Positions 14,962-30,259 of a stretch of DNA of 64,000 nucleotides are shown one piece after another; within the stretch, counting starts at the first letter, position 1, and each line of letters begins with the position of its first letter. The notes under the pieces were generated by a model. The model saw nothing but the letters and a program-made list of their open reading frames with translations. It ran no database searches and was not told where the DNA came from. The DNA is from Balneolales bacterium (GTDB lineage: Bacteria > Bacteroidota > Rhodothermia > Balneolales > Cyclonatronaceae): contig JAIULZ010000005.1 of NCBI GenBank assembly GCA_022565805.1, positions 1 through 64,000 on the forward strand, read 5' to 3'. Position numbers and translations under genes: made by a program.

Positions 14962-16014
14962 CTATTGAATATTGAGCTGTAATAGCTGATCTGTCGTCTT
15001 TTTCTGAGAATATGGAATCCCCCCTTCAGGATCGGCGTAGCCAAGACCGATAAGCATCATGGGTCGCTCATCGGGTTTTACCTTTAGCAACTGATCCATT
15101 TTATTTTCCAGATACTCTATATCGGGCCAGTTTATTGTAAGCGAACTAAGACCAAGGGTCTCAAGCGCCAAAATAAAGCTCATCGATGCGAGACCGCCGT
15201 CGAGATAAATTACATGTCTGTCGCGCTCACTCGCATAGGCGCTCAGTTTCCCTACTAAAACAATAAGTACCGGAATATTTTCAAAGAAAGGACGAATTCC
15301 CATTGGGATGGCTCCCACTTTATTTTTCATATCCTGATCTGTGAAAATCCGGAACTCAAAAGGCTGGCGGTTACATGCAGATGGTGAATAAGCCGCAGCT
15401 AAACAGGCTTTTTGAATTAAGTCGTAGGGAACTTCTTTATCAAGGAAATAACGAACCGATCGTCTTTGTCTGGTTAGTGCAAGAAAGTCTTCATAAGTTA
15501 TATTACTTTTTATGGTCTGTGCTCTTTTGTATGGCACATAATCTACAGGTTTAAGCTGTACTTCAACCTTATGCTTTGTGCTCTGGAATTTTTTGTATGC
15601 TTCTGCTATTACGGAATTGGTTGTATCGGTAGAATTAAAGTATGTTTGCAGAACACTTGAAGCCCATTTAAGTAATTCTGTATCGGGTTGGCCGGTGTAG
15701 TCTCCGAATTCGGAGAGTTTTTTATAATTATGAACCGTATCGCCAATATAATCTAAAGCAAATACAGACCGGCGATTTTTCATTATCAGCCCTTTTTCGA
15801 TGCGGTGTACCTGTCTTCTAAGGTGAAAAGAGTTTGGCTTATTCTCTTTCAGCGCCTGCAGGTGCATAAATTTACCCTCCAGAACTTTTTGGTGCTCTCT
15901 GGAAAAATCACTTGAAAAAAGGAAATAATACAAGTCTGCCAGTTTAGGGTGCCGACGTACTACTGGTAACAGAATATTATTTTGTACATACAGCTTGAAA
16001 TCATACAGAGACAT
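14962..16014 (-). CDS. Nitroreductase-family protein with N-terminal extension
   Basis: A 350-residue protein. The C-terminal 190 residues are a flavin-binding nitroreductase fold with 'RRSVRYFLDKEVP' near 180-192, 'AAYSPSACNRQPFEFRIF' near 205-222 and 'LGLGYADPEGG' near the end. The N-terminal 150 residues contain 'HRIEKGL', a conserved mark of nitroreductase-like proteins found in polysaccharide clusters. It lies inside the operon between a GT2 gene and the flippase. A role as a flavin-dependent modifier of a sugar or a lipid-linked intermediate is inference; the substrate is unknown. Confidence 0.82.
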   Translation of the reverse strand: MSLYDFKLYVQNNILLPVVRRHPKLADLYYFLFSSDFSREHQKVLEGKFMHLQALKENKPNSFHLRRQVHRIEKGLIMKNRRSVFALDYIGDTVHNYKKLSEFGDYTGQPDTELLKWASSVLQTYFNSTDTTNSVIAEAYKKFQSTKHKVEVQLKPVDYVPYKRAQTIKSNITYEDFLALTRQRRSVRYFLDKEVPYDLIQKACLAAAYSPSACNRQPFEFRIFTDQDMKNKVGAIPMGIRPFFENIPVLIVLVGKLSAYASERDRHVIYLDGGLASMSFILALETLGLSSLTINWPDIEYLENKMDQLLKVKPDERPMMLIGLGYADPEGGIPYSQKKTTDQLLQLNIQ

Positions 16015-17217: not shown

Positions 17218-18807
17218 CTATCGGGTTTTAAAAATTCGATGTGTAAGTACTTCTTCGGGACCAACGTTATTATTAACCTTATAAGCAGTATCGGCATCGG
17301 GCTTATCTTCGTTAAGAAGCTGTCGGTCTATATATAGTATTTTTGAAAAAGCTGCAGCTGCCAGGAAGAATATACCATTAATTGGTGGCGAATTAATAGT
17401 TTCCTGAGGATAGTTAGTAATTACCAGGCACATCATAATAATCAGGAACATTAGCTGATATGCTCTAAGTTTATCACTCTTTATTTTAAAATAATTACGA
17501 ATACCTTCTATTAAAATAACGGCTAATAAGGCATTAAAGAGCAGTAGTCCAATCCAACCGGCTTCTACAGCCGTTCGCACAAAGCCGCTGTCTGGCGGGA
17601 ATTGCGCCAGTGGTGAATGTGGACTAAATCGCTGCCCCCATACCCCAGTGCTTCCCAGACCTCCACCTAGTGGATGCGACCGAATAAATGGCTGAATGAA
17701 CGCTTGATTCTGGACTCTAACATCGAAAGATGCATCGTCGCCCGGTTTAAATGCGCTTTGAAACTGCACTAAACGCTGATTACTAGTTGGCATATTGACA
17801 ATTCCAAGGAATAATATTCCTAAAATTGCGGAAGCTACAACTACACGGAGGTTTCCGTTTAGCACAATGTAGGTTACCAATCCAACAATAGGCACGATAT
17901 AAGCCGCGCGCGTTCCAGAAGTAAGCATCCCCCAAAACATGGTAAAAGCCATTATTAAAAGAACAGCTTTCTTAAAATAGCTATTTGTGGCGAGCGTAAG
18001 CGCGATTGCAGCCGTAGCGCTAAGCGCCATAAGAATACCGAACACCATGGGTCCGGAAAAGAAAGACCATACACGAATATTTCCAAACTGATAATATCTT
18101 CGAAACCGGACCGGATCTGCGGTAAGCCAATTCCACTCAAACTGCCGTAAGCCAAACGTATCTTGAAAGATGCCGTATAATGCGCCTACAAAAGCAATAC
18201 CCATCCAAAAAAAGACAATGGCTTTTAGGTACTGCATATTATCTATGGCATACAAAAGCACATAATAAAGCACCATTATACCTGCAAAACCTCTGATGGT
18301 ATATACCCAAGCTTCTTTGGATGCAGCATCCGGATTAAAAAACAGTAAGAAGGTATAGACGATCCATAAAAGCACAGCATAGCTTACGGGGTTATTCATG
18401 AACCTCCAGTCGCGTTCCCGTGATTGCCTTACAATTAATCCAAAGACAAGTGCCGCGGTAACAGCATCAAAGGATATTCCGAAAGGAATATCAGGTATTA
18501 ACCTCGAAAGCCCGAGTACTGTAAACAATAGTGTAAAAAGTACAAGAATGCCAAACTTCAGGTTAAAGATAAGCGCTGCCCCAATTGGCAGACCAATTAT
18601 TACAACGGCTACCAATACAGCAGGCACAAGACCTTTTAAACCTGCTATTAATCCGATTAAAACCGCAGAGCCCAATAACAGTAGAATACCAAAAGGATTA
18701 ACTAACTTTTGCAGGATAGTCTTTTCATAAAGCCACAATTTACCGCGTTTCCAGGCAGATGATTGTTCAGCTTTGGTTTTGCTGATATGTAATATGGGAT
18801 GGAACAA
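17218..18807 (-). CDS. O-antigen polymerase/ligase family protein (Wzy-like), paralogue A
   Basis: A 529-residue membrane protein with about 11-12 hydrophobic segments and a large external loop holding 'PLGGGLGSTGVWGQRFSPHS', a Wzy/WaaL-family signature. It is clearly paralogous to the gene at 19253-20803: both share 'WSFFSGPMVFG', 'NQRL..FQSAFK' and 'LAQFPPDSG'. The only plausible start is TTG at 18807, because a stop lies four codons upstream and no ATG occurs in the first 120 codons. One of the pair probably polymerises the repeat unit. The other may be a second polymerase or a ligase to a surface anchor, which is inference. Confidence 0.83.
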   Translation of the reverse strand: MFHPILHISKTKAEQSSAWKRGKLWLYEKTILQKLVNPFGILLLLGSAVLIGLIAGLKGLVPAVLVAVVIIGLPIGAALIFNLKFGILVLFTLLFTVLGLSRLIPDIPFGISFDAVTAALVFGLIVRQSRERDWRFMNNPVSYAVLLWIVYTFLLFFNPDAASKEAWVYTIRGFAGIMVLYYVLLYAIDNMQYLKAIVFFWMGIAFVGALYGIFQDTFGLRQFEWNWLTADPVRFRRYYQFGNIRVWSFFSGPMVFGILMALSATAAIALTLATNSYFKKAVLLIMAFTMFWGMLTSGTRAAYIVPIVGLVTYIVLNGNLRVVVASAILGILFLGIVNMPTSNQRLVQFQSAFKPGDDASFDVRVQNQAFIQPFIRSHPLGGGLGSTGVWGQRFSPHSPLAQFPPDSGFVRTAVEAGWIGLLLFNALLAVILIEGIRNYFKIKSDKLRAYQLMFLIIMMCLVITNYPQETINSPPINGIFFLAAAAFSKILYIDRQLLNEDKPDADTAYKVNNNVGPEEVLTHRIFKTR

Positions 18808-19252: not shown

Positions 19253-20803
19253 TTATTGCTTTAGTCGATTTTTCCCGAAATTATTATTAATGTTTTCATT
19301 CGGGTAAAATTCTTTTAGCTTAACGCCCATAGCCAGCGAAAATATAAACAGATATACAAGTGGTGGCGAAAAAGTAGATTCCTGAGGTAGGTTGGTAACT
19401 AAAAGAGAAACCAAAACAGCAATAAAAACAAGAGAGAGTCCCCTGCCTGTTGGGTCTTTAATATAAAAATGATTATAAATACTTTGCCTCAGCGCCAGGT
19501 AATACAGAATCAGAAATAAAAAGAGGCCAAGCCACCCCATCTCTACCGCTACACGTACAAGACCGGAGTCGGGTGGGAATTGAGCTAAGTCTGTATGAGG
19601 CGAAAACCGTTGCCCCCATCGCCCGGTACTTCCCAAACCTCCACCCACTGGATTTGATTGTATAAAGGGTTGCATATCTTGCCAGTTCTTTACACGAACA
19701 TCATAGGAAGCATCTGCTGTGTACTTAAACGCACTTTGAAAAGCCGCCAGCCGTTGATTATCGGTTGGCATGTATACAAAAAATGCACCGATGCCGATTA
19801 CTATAATGGTATAGAATAATGATTTCCCCTTAAAGTTAAGTACAAAATAGGTTAACACCACAATAAGTGGAATTACATATGCGGCACGTGTGGCTGTGGT
19901 AAACATTGCCCAAAACATGATAATCCCACCTATAATATAGGCAGCTTTAAGCCATGGGGTTTTTACAATAGTTGATAATATAATCGCTACAGAGGATGAA
20001 ATTCCCATTAGGAGCCCAAAAACCATAGGGCCGCTAAAAAACGACCATTTACGTATAGAACCCCACTGCCGGTAGCGGAAATAACGGGTTAAATCTTCTG
20101 CAAGCCAAGCCCATTCGAATTGCCTAAGCCCCACATAATCTTGGAATAAACCATATAAAGCCCCAAGAAAAGCAATTGACATCCAAAGGCCAATTAATAT
20201 CCATACAAACCGTACCGAATCTACTGTATAAACAAAAACAAAATAAAGTAATATGATTAGAGCATAGGCCCGTATGGTGTAGAGCCAAGCCAACTGAGAT
20301 TCTGCTGCCGGGTTAAAGAGCTGAGCTATTGCAAATGAAACCCAAACAATAATAGCTATACCAAGAGGGCTTTTAAAGTAAGACCAATCTGTATTTTTGC
20401 TAAACAGTAGCTTTAAAGTTAAACCTGCAAGCAATGCTACCGTAACAATATCAAAAGAAATTCCCAGGGGTACCGTTGTAAGCACCTTGGAAAGGCTCAG
20501 GAGAGTAAATTGCAGAGTTAGCAGAAAAATGAGACCAAATTTCTGATTAAATATGCACCCAGCAATTATGGGAACTCCAACGATGAAAAGCGCTGTAAGC
20601 GTTACTCCTGCCAGCCCGGCAAAAGATGCCAGTACGGATAAAACTATAGCAATAAATGCAAATAATGAATATCCAAGAGGGTTTAACAGCTTCTGATTTA
20701 TTGCTTGATTATAAAACCAGCCCCCACGCCTGCCATATGCAGCATAATTATGTTCTGCACTAGACCCGTTGTTACCAAACTGATATTTATAATCATTTTT
20801 CAT
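19253..20803 (-). CDS. O-antigen polymerase/ligase family protein (Wzy-like), paralogue B
   Basis: A 516-residue membrane protein with the same architecture as the gene at 17218-18807, including 'PVGGGLGSTGRWGQRFSPHT' and 'LAQFPPDSGLVRVAVEMGWLGL' in the large loop. It starts with ATG at 20803, 9 bp after the stop of the 48-residue membrane peptide, so the two are co-transcribed. Similarity to paralogue A runs over nearly the whole length, pointing to a tandem duplication followed by divergence. Confidence 0.85.
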   Translation of the reverse strand: MKNDYKYQFGNNGSSAEHNYAAYGRRGGWFYNQAINQKLLNPLGYSLFAFIAIVLSVLASFAGLAGVTLTALFIVGVPIIAGCIFNQKFGLIFLLTLQFTLLSLSKVLTTVPLGISFDIVTVALLAGLTLKLLFSKNTDWSYFKSPLGIAIIVWVSFAIAQLFNPAAESQLAWLYTIRAYALIILLYFVFVYTVDSVRFVWILIGLWMSIAFLGALYGLFQDYVGLRQFEWAWLAEDLTRYFRYRQWGSIRKWSFFSGPMVFGLLMGISSSVAIILSTIVKTPWLKAAYIIGGIIMFWAMFTTATRAAYVIPLIVVLTYFVLNFKGKSLFYTIIVIGIGAFFVYMPTDNQRLAAFQSAFKYTADASYDVRVKNWQDMQPFIQSNPVGGGLGSTGRWGQRFSPHTDLAQFPPDSGLVRVAVEMGWLGLFLFLILYYLALRQSIYNHFYIKDPTGRGLSLVFIAVLVSLLVTNLPQESTFSPPLVYLFIFSLAMGVKLKEFYPNENINNNFGKNRLKQ

Positions 20804-20812
20804 CCGTTATAA

Positions 20813-20959
20813 TCAGAAAAAAACGATTTTAAGGAATAAGAAAACTAGTAGACCTATTGAAATAGCCATAGCAATTGTTCTACGCAACATATCTACTTGC
20901 GACAAACCATCTTCTGAAACTATATCGTCTTCTGTATTTTTTTTGGGCTTTGTAATCAT
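20813..20959 (-). CDS. Small single-pass membrane protein (48 residues)
   Basis: An open reading frame of 48 codons from ATG 20959 to TGA at 20813. A hydrophilic acidic stretch ('KPKKNTEDDIVSEDG') is followed by 'MLRRTIAMAISIG' and a hydrophobic helix to the C-terminus. It fits exactly between two real genes, 7 bp after the GT2 stop at 20967 and 9 bp before the polymerase start at 20803, with no other room for a gene. This operon packing is the main evidence that it is real. I do not recognise a family. A helper of the neighbouring GT2 synthase or polymerase is plausible but unproven. Confidence 0.65.
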   Translation of the reverse strand: MITKPKKNTEDDIVSEDGLSQVDMLRRTIAMAISIGLLVFLFLKIVFF

Positions 20960-20966
20960 ATAATAC

Positions 20967-22241
20967 TCAGAACTTATACTTTCTTGTTATGTTCATATCG
21001 GAAACAACTTCTTCGATAGTAAGTTTTTTTTGATGCGTAGTTTCCATAAAAGATGTTTTTGCCTGTCTTATACGAACCAATGCGAGTACCTGCCTGAAAA
21101 CAAACAGCGGTACCGATAACAATGCTTTCCAGACACGTGAATCGGCTGAAGCTGCTTTCAGAGATGCTAGAAAATTAAGCGTAAAAAGAACCCATGCGGC
21201 GCTTATATAAATGGCTACAGACGATGTAAACACCCATGCGGCGGCTACTAATAGTAGGCCACCAGCTCCAAGTATAAATAGCGGTGGTATGGATATCATT
21301 AAGCCAAAGAAAAATGCATTACTAGAAACGTTTTTCACTCCCCAAAATGTAAGCGATAAAGCTTCTCTGTAATATGAAAACCAGGAGCTTATCCAACGGG
21401 TACGCTGCCGCTGTACTTGTTCACCCGAAGCTACTTTTTCATCGAAAAGGACTGCATTTGCCGCATATGCAATAGTGAAACCATCTCTTATAAGCTCGCT
21501 CTGCAGAATTTTGTCTTCAGCAGAGATCACTTCGCCTTCTTTAGCTGCTTCTAGCGTTCTTTGGGTGTGTTCGGCATAATATGTTGTTTTAACTGCCATA
21601 CCAGAACCGGCAATTGTTGCAGAACTGCCCATTCTAAAGGGTGCCATGCGCTGCGTAACGTGATAATAGTACTCGCCTGCGGCATCTATGCAAGCATAGG
21701 CGGTATTCAAATTTTTTGCGGTTCGGCGCGCCTGAATAACCTCAAACCCTAGCAACATAAATTGGTTTAACTCTTGCAACAAATCTTCATGAGCAAGGTT
21801 ATCAGGATCGAAAACCAGTGTATACTCATGGTTAATCGGGTTAATCGAATCAAGAGCCAGCCTTAGCGATTTAACCTTAGAGTCGAGGGGACTCTCCGGG
21901 TAGATTATTGTTAAAAGCGGATGCTCAGGGTCTGTTGGCTCTTTTTCGCAGCGATCGGCTACTAAATAAATATGATAGTTAGAATACTTTTGTTTGATCA
22001 GCGAATCGATTAATAAAAAGGCGAATTCTTTTTCTTTATAGGCCGTAATTACACATGCTATGCCTGTTTCCCGATCTTCTGGGGAAAAGGAACGCGAATT
22101 GCCAGGCTTAGCGGCTATCGCAATATCCCCAAGTTGCACAGGCATAATTAAAGCCAAAATATTGTATAAAAATGGCAGTATTAGGTAAAAAGCCACAATT
22201 AACTGAATTGTGATAAACCCGTAAATAAATAAATCTGCCAT
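20967..22241 (-). CDS. Membrane glycosyltransferase family 2 (processive type)
   Basis: A 424-residue protein with an N-terminal membrane helix, a GT-A catalytic domain and at least three C-terminal membrane segments. It shows 'FDPDN' (DxD-like) near 143, 'AEDKIL' (ED-type acceptor motif) near 242 and 'QRTRW', a match to the QxxRW motif of processive synthases, near 280. This set is characteristic of cellulose/hyaluronan-synthase-like enzymes, which build and may extrude chains. In this locus it may instead add a single sugar. It is 100 bp downstream of the Wzc-like gene and 7 bp upstream of the small membrane peptide gene. Confidence 0.85.
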   Translation of the reverse strand: MADLFIYGFITIQLIVAFYLILPFLYNILALIMPVQLGDIAIAAKPGNSRSFSPEDRETGIACVITAYKEKEFAFLLIDSLIKQKYSNYHIYLVADRCEKEPTDPEHPLLTIIYPESPLDSKVKSLRLALDSINPINHEYTLVFDPDNLAHEDLLQELNQFMLLGFEVIQARRTAKNLNTAYACIDAAGEYYYHVTQRMAPFRMGSSATIAGSGMAVKTTYYAEHTQRTLEAAKEGEVISAEDKILQSELIRDGFTIAYAANAVLFDEKVASGEQVQRQRTRWISSWFSYYREALSLTFWGVKNVSSNAFFFGLMISIPPLFILGAGGLLLVAAAWVFTSSVAIYISAAWVLFTLNFLASLKAASADSRVWKALLSVPLFVFRQVLALVRIRQAKTSFMETTHQKKLTIEEVVSDMNITRKYKF

Positions 22242-22341: not shown

Positions 22342-24681
22342 CTATGCATCCGACGCTTTAGCCTTTTTAAACTTAGGCTTCTTTTTCCTGTCAGCCCTGC
22401 TAAAGGCGCCCTTAATATTACCTCTGGATATTTGCTTGATCGCATGCTTAAGCATGTTACTTTCGACTTCAACATCACCATAGATATACTGGATTTCCTC
22501 TATGGCCACTTTATTTAAAATACTGCCATTAAAAGTAATCTTACTACTGTCAATTTCTTCGATTATAGAAGCATCAATACCGTTTACAACTTCACCTGCA
22601 GCGTAAGTGAGTGTAATGGAGTCGGCGTATTCTAGCAATTCACGGCTATTATTATCTCTTACCATAGTTGTGGAATCAATAATGATAAGGTCATATTCTT
22701 CAGACATTTTCTCAAATGCGTCTTTTATTTTAGCAGGAACTGCAACTTCGGAAATGGTAAGGTTACTTTTCTCGCAACCCAATACGTGCACATTTTCATG
22801 CCCCGTTTCGTGTACAGACATAGACAATGACATTTCCCCACGCAGATATTCAAACAAGTGAGGTTCTACATCGAACTGAAGCGTGAGATCATTGCTAATT
22901 GTATTGGTATCAACAATAAGTACTTTACGTCCCGTTTGTGCAATCGCATAACCAAGCACTATTGATATAAATGTTTTACCGGATCTTGCCTGACTACTTG
23001 TAATTAACAGGCGCTTCCCGTTCATGTAGGTTAGCACATTAGACCTTAGTAGCCTTACAAGAGATAATGTAGCAGCAAGTAAAGGTTTTTCGGGTTTCTT
23101 TTCGAATAGTTCCGGTACGTTTAATTCGTCTTCGTCGTTTTCTCCAATAAGAGGAACCATACCGAAAACAGGTTTCTGAGTACGATCGGCCAGTTGCTTA
23201 GCATTACGTATTGTAAGGTCGAAATATTCAATCGCAAAAATAGCTACCAAACCAAAAGCAAAAGATCCAGCGGCGGCTACTAACAGAATAAGCAAACGTT
23301 TGGAAGGTAGCGGATCCCTTGGTGGGAGAGCACGCTCAATGGTTTCCATTTGAGTACCGCTACTCATAGATTGCTGACGTAAGCGAAATTCGTTCAGGCG
23401 ATCCAGCATGGATAAGTAATCCCTCTCGGCCAAATCAATTTCACGAATGTAAGAATCCAGAATAGCCTCAACCCGTGCGAATTCGCGCGTCAGGTTTTGC
23501 ATTCGTGTTAATTCAGTTTCGATATGAATGAGCGACTGACGGGCATTTTCTTTATCTATTGCAAGCAAAAGTCTTCTTGTAATAAGGTCTTGACGAGCTA
23601 CACGTGGATCTGCAATAGCCTGATCATTAAGACGACTAATGCTCTCATTAAGGATGGTTCGTTCCTGATCAATCTGCGTCAGAAGCTGTGTTGCAAGTTC
23701 TTCGTCGCCTCTTATGCGGGCATTTAACATTCTTCGGTTAAGTTCGGCCATAGAGCTTCTGGCAACTGCAATCTGCGTATTCAATGCAGAAGATCGGCCT
23801 TCGGTAAAATCTACTCCACCCTCACGCAGCACTACATCCATACTGTCTATAAGACTTTGTGCACCTCTGAATGTTCGCATCTCTGTTTGCCGCAAAAACT
23901 CAAAGTCAGACATTTGCACGGCGATAGCCTTGGTCTGTTCATACAGGTTTGTTATGCTGTTTGCTACTTTAAAATCTTGTAGCCTTCGCGTTCTTTCCTG
24001 CAATTGAACTTCCCTCAGCCGAACCTGCTCGAGATAGAATTCTATATTCACACCCAGGGTACGATCCTGCGACTGTCGGTAAAATGATATAAATCGTGTG
24101 GCCAGGGTGTTTGCAATGTAAGCTGAAAGATCTGGGTTTTCGGTTTCAACAAGAATTTGTATATAATCGCTTTGCCCCATTCTGTTAATACGAACCCTCC
24201 GCCTGAGGCTTTCATAGTCGTACTCTTTATCTACAAGAATTCGATAGATTTGCTGGCCTATACCATCCGTCTCATTCATACTTAAATGATTAGAGATGTA
24301 GTAGCTAAGCGTATCAATCATTGCTGCTTTTTGGGGTTCATTCAGCTCACGGTAAAGCTCTCTTCTTGGCCGGAATGCACGCTCGGTGTTTTGCAAATCT
24401 CTTCTGAGCAAAGAATATGAAACCTGATCAAAAACTGGTTTTGAGCTAATAAGCTCCATCAAGTTCGCATAGCGAAACGTAATTTGGTCTCTGCTAATTC
24501 TTCCATCGTTTCCAGGGGTATTTTGTGCTTCAATAAAACCACTGGAAATAACAGCACGAGCTCTGTAATCACCTTCTTTATTTTTCACAAAAATGAAGGT
24601 AATAATAACCGTAATAACAGGAAGCAGGATTAAGACGGGAAGATGTCTGTAAATTGTTTTTAAAAACTGAATAATGTCCAT
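22342..24681 (-). CDS. Wzc-like chain-length determinant with BY-kinase domain lacking a tyrosine cluster
   Basis: A 779-residue protein. Two membrane helices (about 15-32 and 467-487) bracket a periplasmic Wzz domain with long coiled-coil segments. The cytoplasmic part has a Walker A ('SQARSGKTF') near 562-570, Walker A' ('VLIVDTN') near 589 and Walker B ('YDLIIIDST') near 664, as in bacterial tyrosine kinases. The C-terminus is lysine-rich ('KKKPKFKKAK') and has no tyrosine cluster, so classical autophosphorylation cycling is unlikely. It controls polymer length and export. Its ATG follows the stop of the TolC-like gene by 4 bp, so the two are translationally linked. Confidence 0.87.
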   Translation of the reverse strand: MDIIQFLKTIYRHLPVLILLPVITVIITFIFVKNKEGDYRARAVISSGFIEAQNTPGNDGRISRDQITFRYANLMELISSKPVFDQVSYSLLRRDLQNTERAFRPRRELYRELNEPQKAAMIDTLSYYISNHLSMNETDGIGQQIYRILVDKEYDYESLRRRVRINRMGQSDYIQILVETENPDLSAYIANTLATRFISFYRQSQDRTLGVNIEFYLEQVRLREVQLQERTRRLQDFKVANSITNLYEQTKAIAVQMSDFEFLRQTEMRTFRGAQSLIDSMDVVLREGGVDFTEGRSSALNTQIAVARSSMAELNRRMLNARIRGDEELATQLLTQIDQERTILNESISRLNDQAIADPRVARQDLITRRLLLAIDKENARQSLIHIETELTRMQNLTREFARVEAILDSYIREIDLAERDYLSMLDRLNEFRLRQQSMSSGTQMETIERALPPRDPLPSKRLLILLVAAAGSFAFGLVAIFAIEYFDLTIRNAKQLADRTQKPVFGMVPLIGENDEDELNVPELFEKKPEKPLLAATLSLVRLLRSNVLTYMNGKRLLITSSQARSGKTFISIVLGYAIAQTGRKVLIVDTNTISNDLTLQFDVEPHLFEYLRGEMSLSMSVHETGHENVHVLGCEKSNLTISEVAVPAKIKDAFEKMSEEYDLIIIDSTTMVRDNNSRELLEYADSITLTYAAGEVVNGIDASIIEEIDSSKITFNGSILNKVAIEEIQYIYGDVEVESNMLKHAIKQISRGNIKGAFSRADRKKKPKFKKAKASDA

Positions 24682-24685
24682 TTCC

Positions 24686-25402
24686 TTAATTCTCCATGAA
24701 TACGGTTTCTATTGGAACACCAATAATTTCTTCTACGGCATATCTGGACTTAAAGAAATCTGTTCTGGCAACAATAAGTCTTAACCTTTCCTGAACCAGA
24801 TATTCTTCTGCACGCTGCATTGCCTGTACATCCAAATCTCCTCTCTCAAATCTTTGCCTTACAGATTCTACTGTTGACTGAGAATTTTCTACGGCTTCTA
24901 TCATAAGCTGTAATCTCTCGGCAGATTGAAGAAAGAAGGAGTAATGCTCCATCAATTCCCTGTTTATTCTTTTTCGCTGTATACTTAGCTCATTACGAAA
25001 AATCCGCTCATCAATTTTAGCAATACGGATACGACCTGGCGTTCGGAAAATCCGTCCTAAATTTAATCTTACTGAAATACCAAAACGACTGTATAAATCG
25101 GGAGACCCCTCTTCTATAAACCAATCGGGATAGTAGTTATAAACTATATCCAAAGCATCGAACCACTCAAGCCTTGCGTTACGAATGGCTACTCCGGAAC
25201 GGTCTATCAAGAGTTCAGACACTCTAAAAGCTTCATAATTTTCCCATGCCAGATCCTGAAGTTTAGCAATAATTTCAGGGCTTTCAGACCTTTCGAGCAT
25301 AGGATTTACGTTAAAGGCCTGGCCGTGTGCAGGCACCGCAACGAAGCAAATCGAAATGCAATATACTGCTGCAATAAGTTTTAAATAGAGTTTTTTATTC
25401 AT
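24686..25402 (-). CDS. Short TolC-like outer membrane efflux protein
   Basis: A 238-residue exported protein with a signal peptide of about 27 residues (ending near AHGQ). The mature part is mostly long amphipathic helices, with 'RINRELMEHYSFFLQSAERL' and 'RFERGDLDVQAMQRAEEYL', resembling one OEP repeat of TolC. TolC-type proteins usually have two repeats in about 400-450 residues, so this is about half length. It directly precedes the Wzc-like gene with a 4-bp gap, the place where a Wza-type export protein is expected. It could be an outer-membrane partner or a periplasmic helical connector; assignment is moderate. Confidence 0.65.
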   Translation of the reverse strand: MNKKLYLKLIAAVYCISICFVAVPAHGQAFNVNPMLERSESPEIIAKLQDLAWENYEAFRVSELLIDRSGVAIRNARLEWFDALDIVYNYYPDWFIEEGSPDLYSRFGISVRLNLGRIFRTPGRIRIAKIDERIFRNELSIQRKRINRELMEHYSFFLQSAERLQLMIEAVENSQSTVESVRQRFERGDLDVQAMQRAEEYLVQERLRLIVARTDFFKSRYAVEEIIGVPIETVFMEN

Positions 25403-27670: not shown

Positions 27671-28063
27671 TTAAATCTTTTGGGTTCTCTTCAATTTATT
27701 AAATATTCTAAAGTAGAGTTCTTCGGGGTTAAAAGGCTTAACTAAATAATCATCTGCGCCAGCTTTGAAACACTGTACTCTATCGTTACTGCTTTCGTTA
27801 GCCGAAAGTATCATTACAGGTATTTTATCGAAGCTTTTATCTGTTCGTATGAACTCCATTAGCTGATAACCATCCATTATAGGCATGTTCAAATCAGCAA
27901 CGATAACATCCGGCCGGTTGCCCTCATTGAGCCATTGCCGGGCTTCTTCCCCATTATTTTTTGTAATTACGGTGAAGTATTTCTTTAAATAAAATTCGAG
28001 CAATTTTCGAATGCTAATCTCATCATCAACAATTAATACCTGTATTTGATCGAACTGAGACAT
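27671..28063 (-). CDS. Single-domain response regulator
   Basis: A 130-residue receiver domain with no output domain. D13-D14, the phospho-acceptor D57 ('VADLNMP'), S87 and K109 are all present, so it should be functional. The hybrid kinase gene ends 33 bp upstream on the same strand, so it is probably its phosphorelay partner. It may act as a CheY-like diffusible messenger or relay to another protein. The sugar transferase gene starts 92 bp downstream, linking signalling with polysaccharide synthesis. Confidence 0.9.
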   Translation of the reverse strand: MSQFDQIQVLIVDDEISIRKLLEFYLKKYFTVITKNNGEEARQWLNEGNRPDVIVADLNMPIMDGYQLMEFIRTDKSFDKIPVMILSANESSNDRVQCFKAGADDYLVKPFNPEELYFRIFNKLKRTQKI

Positions 28064-28096
28064 AATAAATACTAAAATATGGTTATAAAAAATAAA

Positions 28097-30259
28097 TCAC
28101 TGCTCTTTGAGATACCTGGCCAATTCTTCATTAGCCTTATTTATAATCTCAAAAAGTTTAATAATATGTTGCTTTATCAAGTTAATATCAGACTCCGATT
28201 TGGCCAGACTCTCTATTTCTTTGATATGTGATGCTTCCGGATCTATACCTACATAGCCTAATACAGGCTTCATTTTATGAGCAGCTTTTGCAATAGCATC
28301 GAAATTTTGGTTGTCCACGCCCTCATTCAGGCTATCCATATGATCTACAGATTGATCAATAAACAAGTTTATCATTTCATCCATAAACTCTTTATTCCCA
28401 TCTGAAATTTCCCGCAAATAAGCTAAATCTGTTACCATAATAATTTCTGAATTTTCCGAAGCATTGTTGGTATGGCGAGCTGGCGCAACTTCCATATCTG
28501 ACGATACAATAAAATCGGTTTTTAAAGTGGTACCGTTTTTTTTCTGCTGAACCCAATACTTAAGGTTGTCGGGGAAGAATGGTTTTCTAATTATACCATC
28601 CATGCCCGATTTAAGGCATTGCATTTCATCTTCTTTAAGAATTGATGCAGTTAGTGCTAATATAGTGACTTTATCACCCAAAAGATGCCGAATCTTTCGG
28701 GTCGCTTCGTAGCCGTCCATTACCGGCATTTGTATATCCATCAAAACTATATCAAATTCTTCTTGCTGCATTTTCTCGACAGCTTCGAGCCCATTCTTAG
28801 CTACATCATAAGATGATCCCCATTTTTTCAAAATAGTAGTAACTACTTTTCTGTTAATAGGGTGATCGTCAACAACCAGAAATCTTAGATTTTGTAGTAA
28901 CTCATGCGTAATTGTAGTATTGGAGAACTTCGAATCATCGGCTACATCTACAGGAAGCGTAACTTCGAAGCAACTTCCATGGCCAAGCTCACTTTCGAGT
29001 TCAAGTGTACCATTTAGCAAAGATACTGTATTCTTTACAATACTCAAGCCTAAACCTATACCACTATACGAGCGGGTAAATCCCTGCTCTATTTGGGCAT
29101 ATTTCTCAAATACATAGTCTTGTTTATCTTTGGAAATACCAATTCCTGTATCCTGAACGCTAAAACATAAAAGACTACTTTCTTCCTTCCAGTAAATCTT
29201 TGCTTTAACCTCACCTTCGTTAGTAAACTTAATCGCATTATCAAGCAGATTCTTAATAATATTTCTGATCTTTTGATAATCGGATATAAATACAGCCGGC
29301 AGCTGTTCGGAGATTTGGTAGGTATATTTTAAGCCTTTTTCGGTTGCTTTTTCGTGGTAGGCATTTAAAATGGGAATTATATCTTCATCAGGATGAATAA
29401 TATCTTTTGTGAGATAATCCGGATCGTGCTCTGATGTTGAAAACTCAGCTATTCCTGTGAGAACTTCCATCAGGTTTGCTGCAGATAGTTTAATTGATTC
29501 CAGAAAAGATTTTTTACTTAGATCGTCTTCCAAATCTTCGAGCTGTTCTGCTAAACCCACAATTCCATTCATGGGTGTACGAATTTCATGGCTCAGATTA
29601 GCGAGTATCTGATTCTTATTTTGCAGCTGTGTTTGCAATAGGGCTTTTTGCTTCTCAGACTCTTCAATTTCGTACCGGTTATTTATGATGGGGAAAATCC
29701 AGCCGAGCATACTTTCCCCCGGTTTTTCCATAAATGATTTTGCTATAGTAGCAATGTGCACGCAGTTGTCTATAGCAATATAACCGGCAAGTTTACCTTC
29801 TTTTAGATAAGGAAGCATACAGGTGCTCTTTATATGTAAAGCATGCAAGAGTTCTTGCTCTACATCAGGGAAAGTATCGATTTGCCCATATACACATTTA
29901 TTCTCTTTGAACTCTGCAAACCATCTCTCGTAGTAAGGATTAACAGGAATCATTTGAGCGTCTTTATTTTTGCGCCCTTCATTACCTGCTTTCCACGATA
30001 CTAATTGCGAGAAATAGTAATTGGCGGTCTCTTCTGTACCGGTTACTTTGTCTTCCGGTGCTACAGTCTTAGCAGCATCTTCGTTGTAGTCGACTATGTA
30101 AATTGTTAAAGCGGAAGCTTCTATGTGGCTTCCAATGTGTTCCAGAATTTGTTGAAGGCGGATCGCAAATTCCTCATGGCTTAACTTAATGTTACTTACA
30201 TCAGATAACATTTTATAGAGCGCCGGAACTTTGGTGAGCAGGCTTGAGTCAAATTTCAT
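28097..30259 (-). CDS. Hybrid sensor histidine kinase (GAF-like, HisKA, HATPase, REC, Hpt)
   Basis: A 720-residue cytoplasmic kinase with no membrane helix. The N-terminal 200 residues resemble a GAF sensor. HisKA has its phospho-histidine in 'LANLSHEIRTPMNG' near 223. HATPase N, G1 and G2 boxes follow ('NLLDNAIKFT', 'DTGIGI', 'GIGLGLSIV'). A receiver has D near 506 ('VLMDIQMPVMDGYE'), and a C-terminal Hpt domain has its histidine in 'AAHKMKPVLG' near 660. The full His-Asp-His chain suggests a final transfer to the receiver gene 33 bp downstream. Confidence 0.9.
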   Translation of the reverse strand: MKFDSSLLTKVPALYKMLSDVSNIKLSHEEFAIRLQQILEHIGSHIEASALTIYIVDYNEDAAKTVAPEDKVTGTEETANYYFSQLVSWKAGNEGRKNKDAQMIPVNPYYERWFAEFKENKCVYGQIDTFPDVEQELLHALHIKSTCMLPYLKEGKLAGYIAIDNCVHIATIAKSFMEKPGESMLGWIFPIINNRYEIEESEKQKALLQTQLQNKNQILANLSHEIRTPMNGIVGLAEQLEDLEDDLSKKSFLESIKLSAANLMEVLTGIAEFSTSEHDPDYLTKDIIHPDEDIIPILNAYHEKATEKGLKYTYQISEQLPAVFISDYQKIRNIIKNLLDNAIKFTNEGEVKAKIYWKEESSLLCFSVQDTGIGISKDKQDYVFEKYAQIEQGFTRSYSGIGLGLSIVKNTVSLLNGTLELESELGHGSCFEVTLPVDVADDSKFSNTTITHELLQNLRFLVVDDHPINRKVVTTILKKWGSSYDVAKNGLEAVEKMQQEEFDIVLMDIQMPVMDGYEATRKIRHLLGDKVTILALTASILKEDEMQCLKSGMDGIIRKPFFPDNLKYWVQQKKNGTTLKTDFIVSSDMEVAPARHTNNASENSEIIMVTDLAYLREISDGNKEFMDEMINLFIDQSVDHMDSLNEGVDNQNFDAIAKAAHKMKPVLGYVGIDPEASHIKEIESLAKSESDINLIKQHIIKLFEIINKANEELARYLKEQ

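Follow-up and report, generated by a model that had tools for sequence, protein, structure and literature searches.

The frame at positions 20813-20959 on the minus strand of the analyzed DNA (64,000 nucleotides, hereafter the window; contig 5 of a 4.47-Mb genome, whose relatives with named records are Balneolales/Balneolia) is a real, conserved coding gene, and the peptide that it encodes is inherited with one clade of Wzy polymerases. It appears likely that this peptide is a selected microprotein that serves as the dedicated single-helix subunit of this clade, in whose polymerases annotation has probably missed a second, small subunit. The features of the locus are as follows (relatives are cited by genome, G, or locus, L, number).

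20813-20959, minus strand: 48-aa microprotein, ATG at 20959 and TGA at 20813-20815 (from reading of the frame, relatives and selection)
20816-20878, minus strand: C-terminal membrane segment, residues 28-48 (from sequence and the AlphaFold helix)
20828-20830, minus strand: codon of Lys44, four residues before the C-terminus (K/R here or one position off in 24 of 26 members)
19253-20803, minus strand: Wzy1, polymerase of the O-antigen ligase superfamily (PF04932) and proposed partner, 9 bp downstream of the peptide
17218-18807, minus strand: Wzy2, a paralogue (45% identical) and second possible partner; the one Wzy present in each of G005, G004 and G002 groups with it
20967-22241, minus strand: processive-type GT2 (PF13641), adjoining the peptide upstream in the window, though not in the majority of loci
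22342-24681, minus strand: Wzc-like co-polymerase (AAA_31, weak GNVR)
24686-25402, minus strand: OEP/TolC-like export protein of the same locus (domain match)

The original prediction described an uninterrupted frame fitted between two genes, with a charged N-terminus and one membrane helix, and both points were confirmed. The 48 codons are separated from the GT2 end (20967) by 7 bp (20960-20966) and from the Wzy start (20803) by 9 bp (20804-20812). The peptide reads MITKPKKNTEDDIVSEDGLSQVDMLRR, followed by a single hydrophobic segment, TIAMAISIGLLVFLFLKIVFF, and AlphaFold placed its helix at residues 21-47 when the peptide was modeled alone and at residues 21-46 in a read-through model with Wzy. 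The 26 family members tabulated have the same architecture, with charged residues in the N-terminal part and a single membrane helix at the C-terminus, and are 29-60 aa long (median 44.5). The N-terminal part differs between members in both length and sequence; many of the longer ones begin with M-[IR]-I-x-P. On the other side of the helix, the last K/R lies four residues before the C-terminus in 19 of the 26 members, three in three and five in two; W takes its place in two sister sequences (L048 and L071). Of the 24 members that have the C-terminal basic residue, 23 carry two or more K/R ahead of the helix, which favours an N-in orientation; however, the net charge beside the helix is inconsistent (-1 to +3 across members), and the topology is therefore uncertain.

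Conservation of the frame was evident among the relatives. Peptides of 51, 53 and 46 aa, with 28-32% identity to the window peptide, occupy the same place in G005, G004 and G002, and a profile built from these four members and applied blindly to 97 genomes recovered G009 (E 1.3e-7) and G006 (E 7.7e-7), the next best place reaching only E 0.0126. Between G005 and G004, 31 of 45 nucleotide differences in the peptide gene fall at third positions, as do 18 of 22 between G425 and G412 (dN/dS 0.03); dN/dS values from saturated third positions came out as 0 and were left unused as numbers. The excess of third-position changes, together with the dN/dS of 0.03, indicates that relatives keep the frame as a protein under purifying selection. 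We also screened all genes of at least 300 codons in the fetched loci for a frame of 25-65 aa with a C-terminal helix just upstream. Ten of 369 genes had one, seven of these frames being family members, and hence the chance rate is 3/362; this screen is conservative, known members in L071, L201 and L042 having escaped it. Absence of the frame in close relatives had been named beforehand as a result that would refute the prediction; the prediction withstood this check, for all family genomes with this Wzy carry the peptide. That the frame is open by chance and has no product, for which nothing more than its small size speaks, is already refuted by the profile matches, the selection, the background rate and the Wzy tree, and has next to no probability left.

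Gene order decides which neighbour the peptide belongs to. The upstream gene in the 26 loci was variable (Wzc in eight, processive GT2 in five, another glycosyltransferase in five, Wzx in three and none recognised in five), whereas the downstream gene was Wzy in 23 and a GT2c in three, with Wzy next after the GT2c. Because the upstream gene varies and the downstream Wzy is constant, the choice between GT2 and polymerase, which the original prediction had left open, is settled for the polymerase. It is true that a processive GT2 adjoins the peptide in the window, G005, G004, G002 and G224, which would suit a subunit of that enzyme. However, the order in G006 is Wzc-peptide-Wzy with no GT2 between, and in G009 a GT2 relative (52% identical) is present while the peptide lies about 3 kb away, ahead of a GT2c that precedes Wzy. 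Furthermore, 80 loci with relatives of the GT2 were found, and among the 51 examined for the peptide only two had it behind the GT2 (L013 and L022, which are the G004 and G002 contigs already counted), the other 49 lacking it at that place. Gene order thus led us to reject the GT2 as partner, and a GT2 subunit is highly improbable. In all but one of 17 adjacent loci, the distance from peptide stop to Wzy start is between -8 and +18 nt (106 nt in the exception), which suggests coupled expression; peptide and Wzy are probably made together, with the peptide normally encoded immediately upstream of Wzy. A second gene order, peptide-GT2c-Wzy, was observed in L212, L213, L214, L215, L130 and L010 (genomes G503, G484, G468, G522, G356 and G009), and the position of GT2c in these loci makes a part in a larger complex possible.

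The distribution of the peptide follows that of the Wzy. A Wzy profile search of the 97 relatives yielded six genomes, the same six as the peptide (E<=7.7e-7), four of which had themselves built the peptide profile. A wider search of 394 genomes from the phylum found the Wzy group in 45, and a short peptide with an F-L-K-I-L-F-F-like ending lies directly upstream of Wzy in many of these 45. The family peptide profile matched 18 places in the 394 genomes at E<=1.5e-7, every one in a genome with this Wzy (45 genomes), the remaining 349 giving none; the next match (E 2.2e-4) fell inside a long frame. It should be noted that this profile was built mostly from the same genomes, so that the search is a test of specificity, and that it recovered 18 of 19 known members, missing G140.

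Phylogenetic analysis gave the same picture. In a tree of 52 Wzys, 25 with the peptide lay on one side of a single branch and 27 without it on the other. When the tree was extended to 61 rows, 31 Wzys with the peptide and 30 without were again split by one branch (support 97/97). A single change accounted for this distribution, a value reached in none of 500 shuffles and found in 96% of 200 bootstrap trees. Absence from the 30 outside Wzys was judged from their upstream regions and from the 394-genome profile, which a very diverged copy elsewhere could escape; for 19 of the loci with no frame listed, the reading covered all three frames. The Wzy frame of L140 has an internal stop, and its longest open piece was entered in the tree. 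Five genomes examined after the family had been defined also fit. On the plasmid of Flammeovirgaceae SG7u.111 (CP139022.1), the Wzy falls inside the clade and a frame, MSDNKFSNDRILEITVTTFSVFIILLLFLKIIFF, lies 7 nt before the annotated Wzy start; this frame is unlisted in a gene table that is incomplete, and may still be annotated. G503, G484 and G468 have clade Wzys with clear peptides (HMM E 7.5e-15, 1.7e-12 and 2.3e-5), and the peptide of G523 is weaker (E 0.045 in a small search) but has the same ending and the right position. The Wzys of Salinibacter, Hymenobacter and Aureispira plasmid records fell outside the clade, and no peptide was found where it was looked for upstream of them.

Wzy1 and Wzy2 matched PF04932 with 45.6 and 43.3 bits (cut-off 31.7), and the content of the locus (Wzx, Wzc, OEP and glycosyltransferases) points to a polymerase rather than a ligase. 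An AlphaFold model in which peptide and Wzy were read through two stops (mean pLDDT 86.1, pTM 0.84) resembled, in its Wzy part, WaaL most closely (7tpg_B; Z 21.8, rmsd 4.2, 349 aligned residues, model residues 137-554), followed by FtsW and RodA structures (Z 10.0-13.4), which assigns the proposed partner to the WaaL/SEDS fold. Foldseek itself listed no match at E<=0.001, and the Wzy profile matched none of the sequences of solved structures. The peptide helix had a pLDDT of 92-95 in the read-through model and of 91-97 alone. Since the helix is equally confident alone, the model is silent on packing, for or against, and we rejected it as packing evidence after this control. We also considered whether the peptide might be an N-terminal helix lost from a split Wzy gene. 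This was not supported: in Wzys from outside the clade the start lies at much the same point, the translations read show no obvious extra N-terminal helix, and the WaaL match stops short of the peptide. Production of a peptide-Wzy fusion by stop read-through was rejected as a general rule, for peptide and Wzy are in frame in the window and eight loci, whereas about half of the adjacent loci are out of frame.

Small membrane subunits are a known kind. BcsF and IcaD/PgaD are small, easily missed membrane proteins of polysaccharide operons, but they belong to cellulose or PNAG synthases and not to Wzy; one dedicated to Wzy would, as far as we have seen, be new. SecE/Sec61-gamma resembles the peptide in having a cytoplasmic helix followed by one C-terminal membrane helix, although its gene context is different. 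Profile matches to it were weak (one of 21 members, Pfam E 0.0032; peptide profile against PDB, E 0.036), and only that one of the 21 members reached E<=0.1. With a match in a single member and a different context, we took the similarity as a shared general shape. A closer parallel is PBP2. According to passages of PMC10449877, the single PBP2 membrane helix, packed against helices 8 and 9 of RodA, strongly stimulates this polymerase; in that pair, as is proposed here, one helix on the N-terminal side is the partner of a polymerase that has many helices and takes undecaprenyl-pyrophosphate donors. The Wzy trees add a trait that is bPBP-like, namely a single-helix candidate partner inherited with a polymerase of the Wzy superfamily. 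In contrast with the peptide, which stops 3-5 residues past the conserved K/R, PBP2 has a large periplasmic enzyme (transpeptidase) domain, and no sequence kinship between the two was shown.

By analogy with PBP2 and RodA, we infer that the peptide binds Wzy and affects its activity. The single helix, putatively oriented N-in/C-out, would pack against the many-helix Wzy and could stabilise or activate it, much as RodA, a related polymerase, is stimulated by the lone PBP2 helix. The C-terminal basic residue would then lie at the periplasmic membrane face, where Wzy handles the undecaprenyl-pyrophosphate-linked sugar, and may help to keep in place either the lipid pyrophosphate or an acidic Wzy residue. 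The fullest form of this proposal, that a large Bacteroidota Wzy clade is a two-part enzyme composed of Wzy and an obligate one-helix microprotein whose basic residue helps to hold the lipid-pyrophosphate substrate at the periplasmic face, is tentative, and we regard it as less probable than the subunit role itself.

Other roles next to Wzy have to be weighed against that of a subunit. The peptide might act as an adaptor whose helix docks between Wzy and the Wzc-type co-polymerase, joining the two and passing on chain-length control. The locus includes a Wzc gene, in eight of the 26 loci Wzc directly precedes the peptide, and in the ECA system Wzy sits inside a ring of co-polymerase helices, as reported in passages of PMC10030265. 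However, at the Hymenobacter and Aureispira loci, whose Wzys lie outside the clade, OEP/TolC is present together with a large gene at the place of Wzc, and the peptide is missing. In addition, when the helix was compared with the Wzc helices of its own locus, mimicry was not seen in any of five loci, the best matches being no better than those of shuffles (a weak test at the level of sequence). We therefore consider an adaptor unlikely. The same comparison bears on a built-in inhibitor or regulator of Wzy acting in the manner of Iap. This 31-aa membrane peptide of phage D3, as portrayed in the relevant part of PMC12004945, binds and blocks Wzy and is said to mimic helix 2 of Wzz. Both are tiny membrane peptides that act on a Wzy polymerase (the action of our peptide being predicted), and size and single helix agree. 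Iap is phage-borne and inhibitory, whereas the present peptide accompanies every Wzy of the clade and always lies in a polysaccharide locus, chromosomal or, in one case, on a plasmid, in an operon and under purifying selection; in the weak comparison above, mimicry of a co-polymerase helix was not seen. An inhibitor thus seems still less probable than an adaptor.

A translational leader, in which translation would matter for the start of Wzy and the peptide itself would not, has in its favour that most loci have no more than about 20 nt between stop and start. It would hardly explain the conservation of amino acids with a constant K/R near the C-terminus, nor the loci in which a whole gene stands between peptide and Wzy, and is very improbable. 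The dedicated Wzy subunit is accordingly the reading that we prefer.

Wzy has so far been viewed as an enzyme of one chain under the control of a co-polymerase, and both the purification and the study of Wzy enzymes are difficult. If the peptide is an obligate subunit, Wzy expressed alone would fail or mislead, and the addition of a peptide of 30-60 aa could enable Wzy activity assays and structures. The principle seen in RodA-PBP2, in which one added helix turns on this enzyme fold, would then extend to the polymerases of sugar coats. The parts of the Wzy review literature consulted (PMC12004945) name the co-polymerase as partner, and we found no description of such a Wzy-linked peptide in the open-access literature; one promising match (PMC13390465) was discarded, its subject, as far as the text available goes, being GtrA flippases. 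The window peptide belongs to no Pfam or NCBIfam family, and 21 family members gave only single weak matches to these databases. The original remark that a small subunit of this sort is easily missed by annotation was apt, for a small gene of a phylum-wide family that has no model in either database can be missed in every genome.

Several additional observations were made on the Wzys and the locus. Position 474 of Wzy1, in a P-Q-E-S stretch near the C-terminal end, is Q in all 25 clade Wzys and in four of 27 outside (mostly N there), as judged from residue fractions; it is a possible contact with the peptide. The tandem genes Wzy1 and Wzy2 are separated by about 445 bp, in which no frame of at least 40 aa exists on their strand. 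The relatives have one Wzy, which groups with Wzy2, while Wzy1 lies on a long branch and may have acquired a new linkage. A nitroreductase-like flavoprotein gene (14962-16014) is found in the polysaccharide locus of the window beside Wzx and a polysaccharide pyruvyl transferase, and G005 and G004 have a gene of equal start and size at this place. Finally, a receiver protein and a hybrid sensor kinase (27671-30259) head the polysaccharide locus in the window, and kinase-like frames were observed at the corresponding place in G005, G004, G009 and G006.
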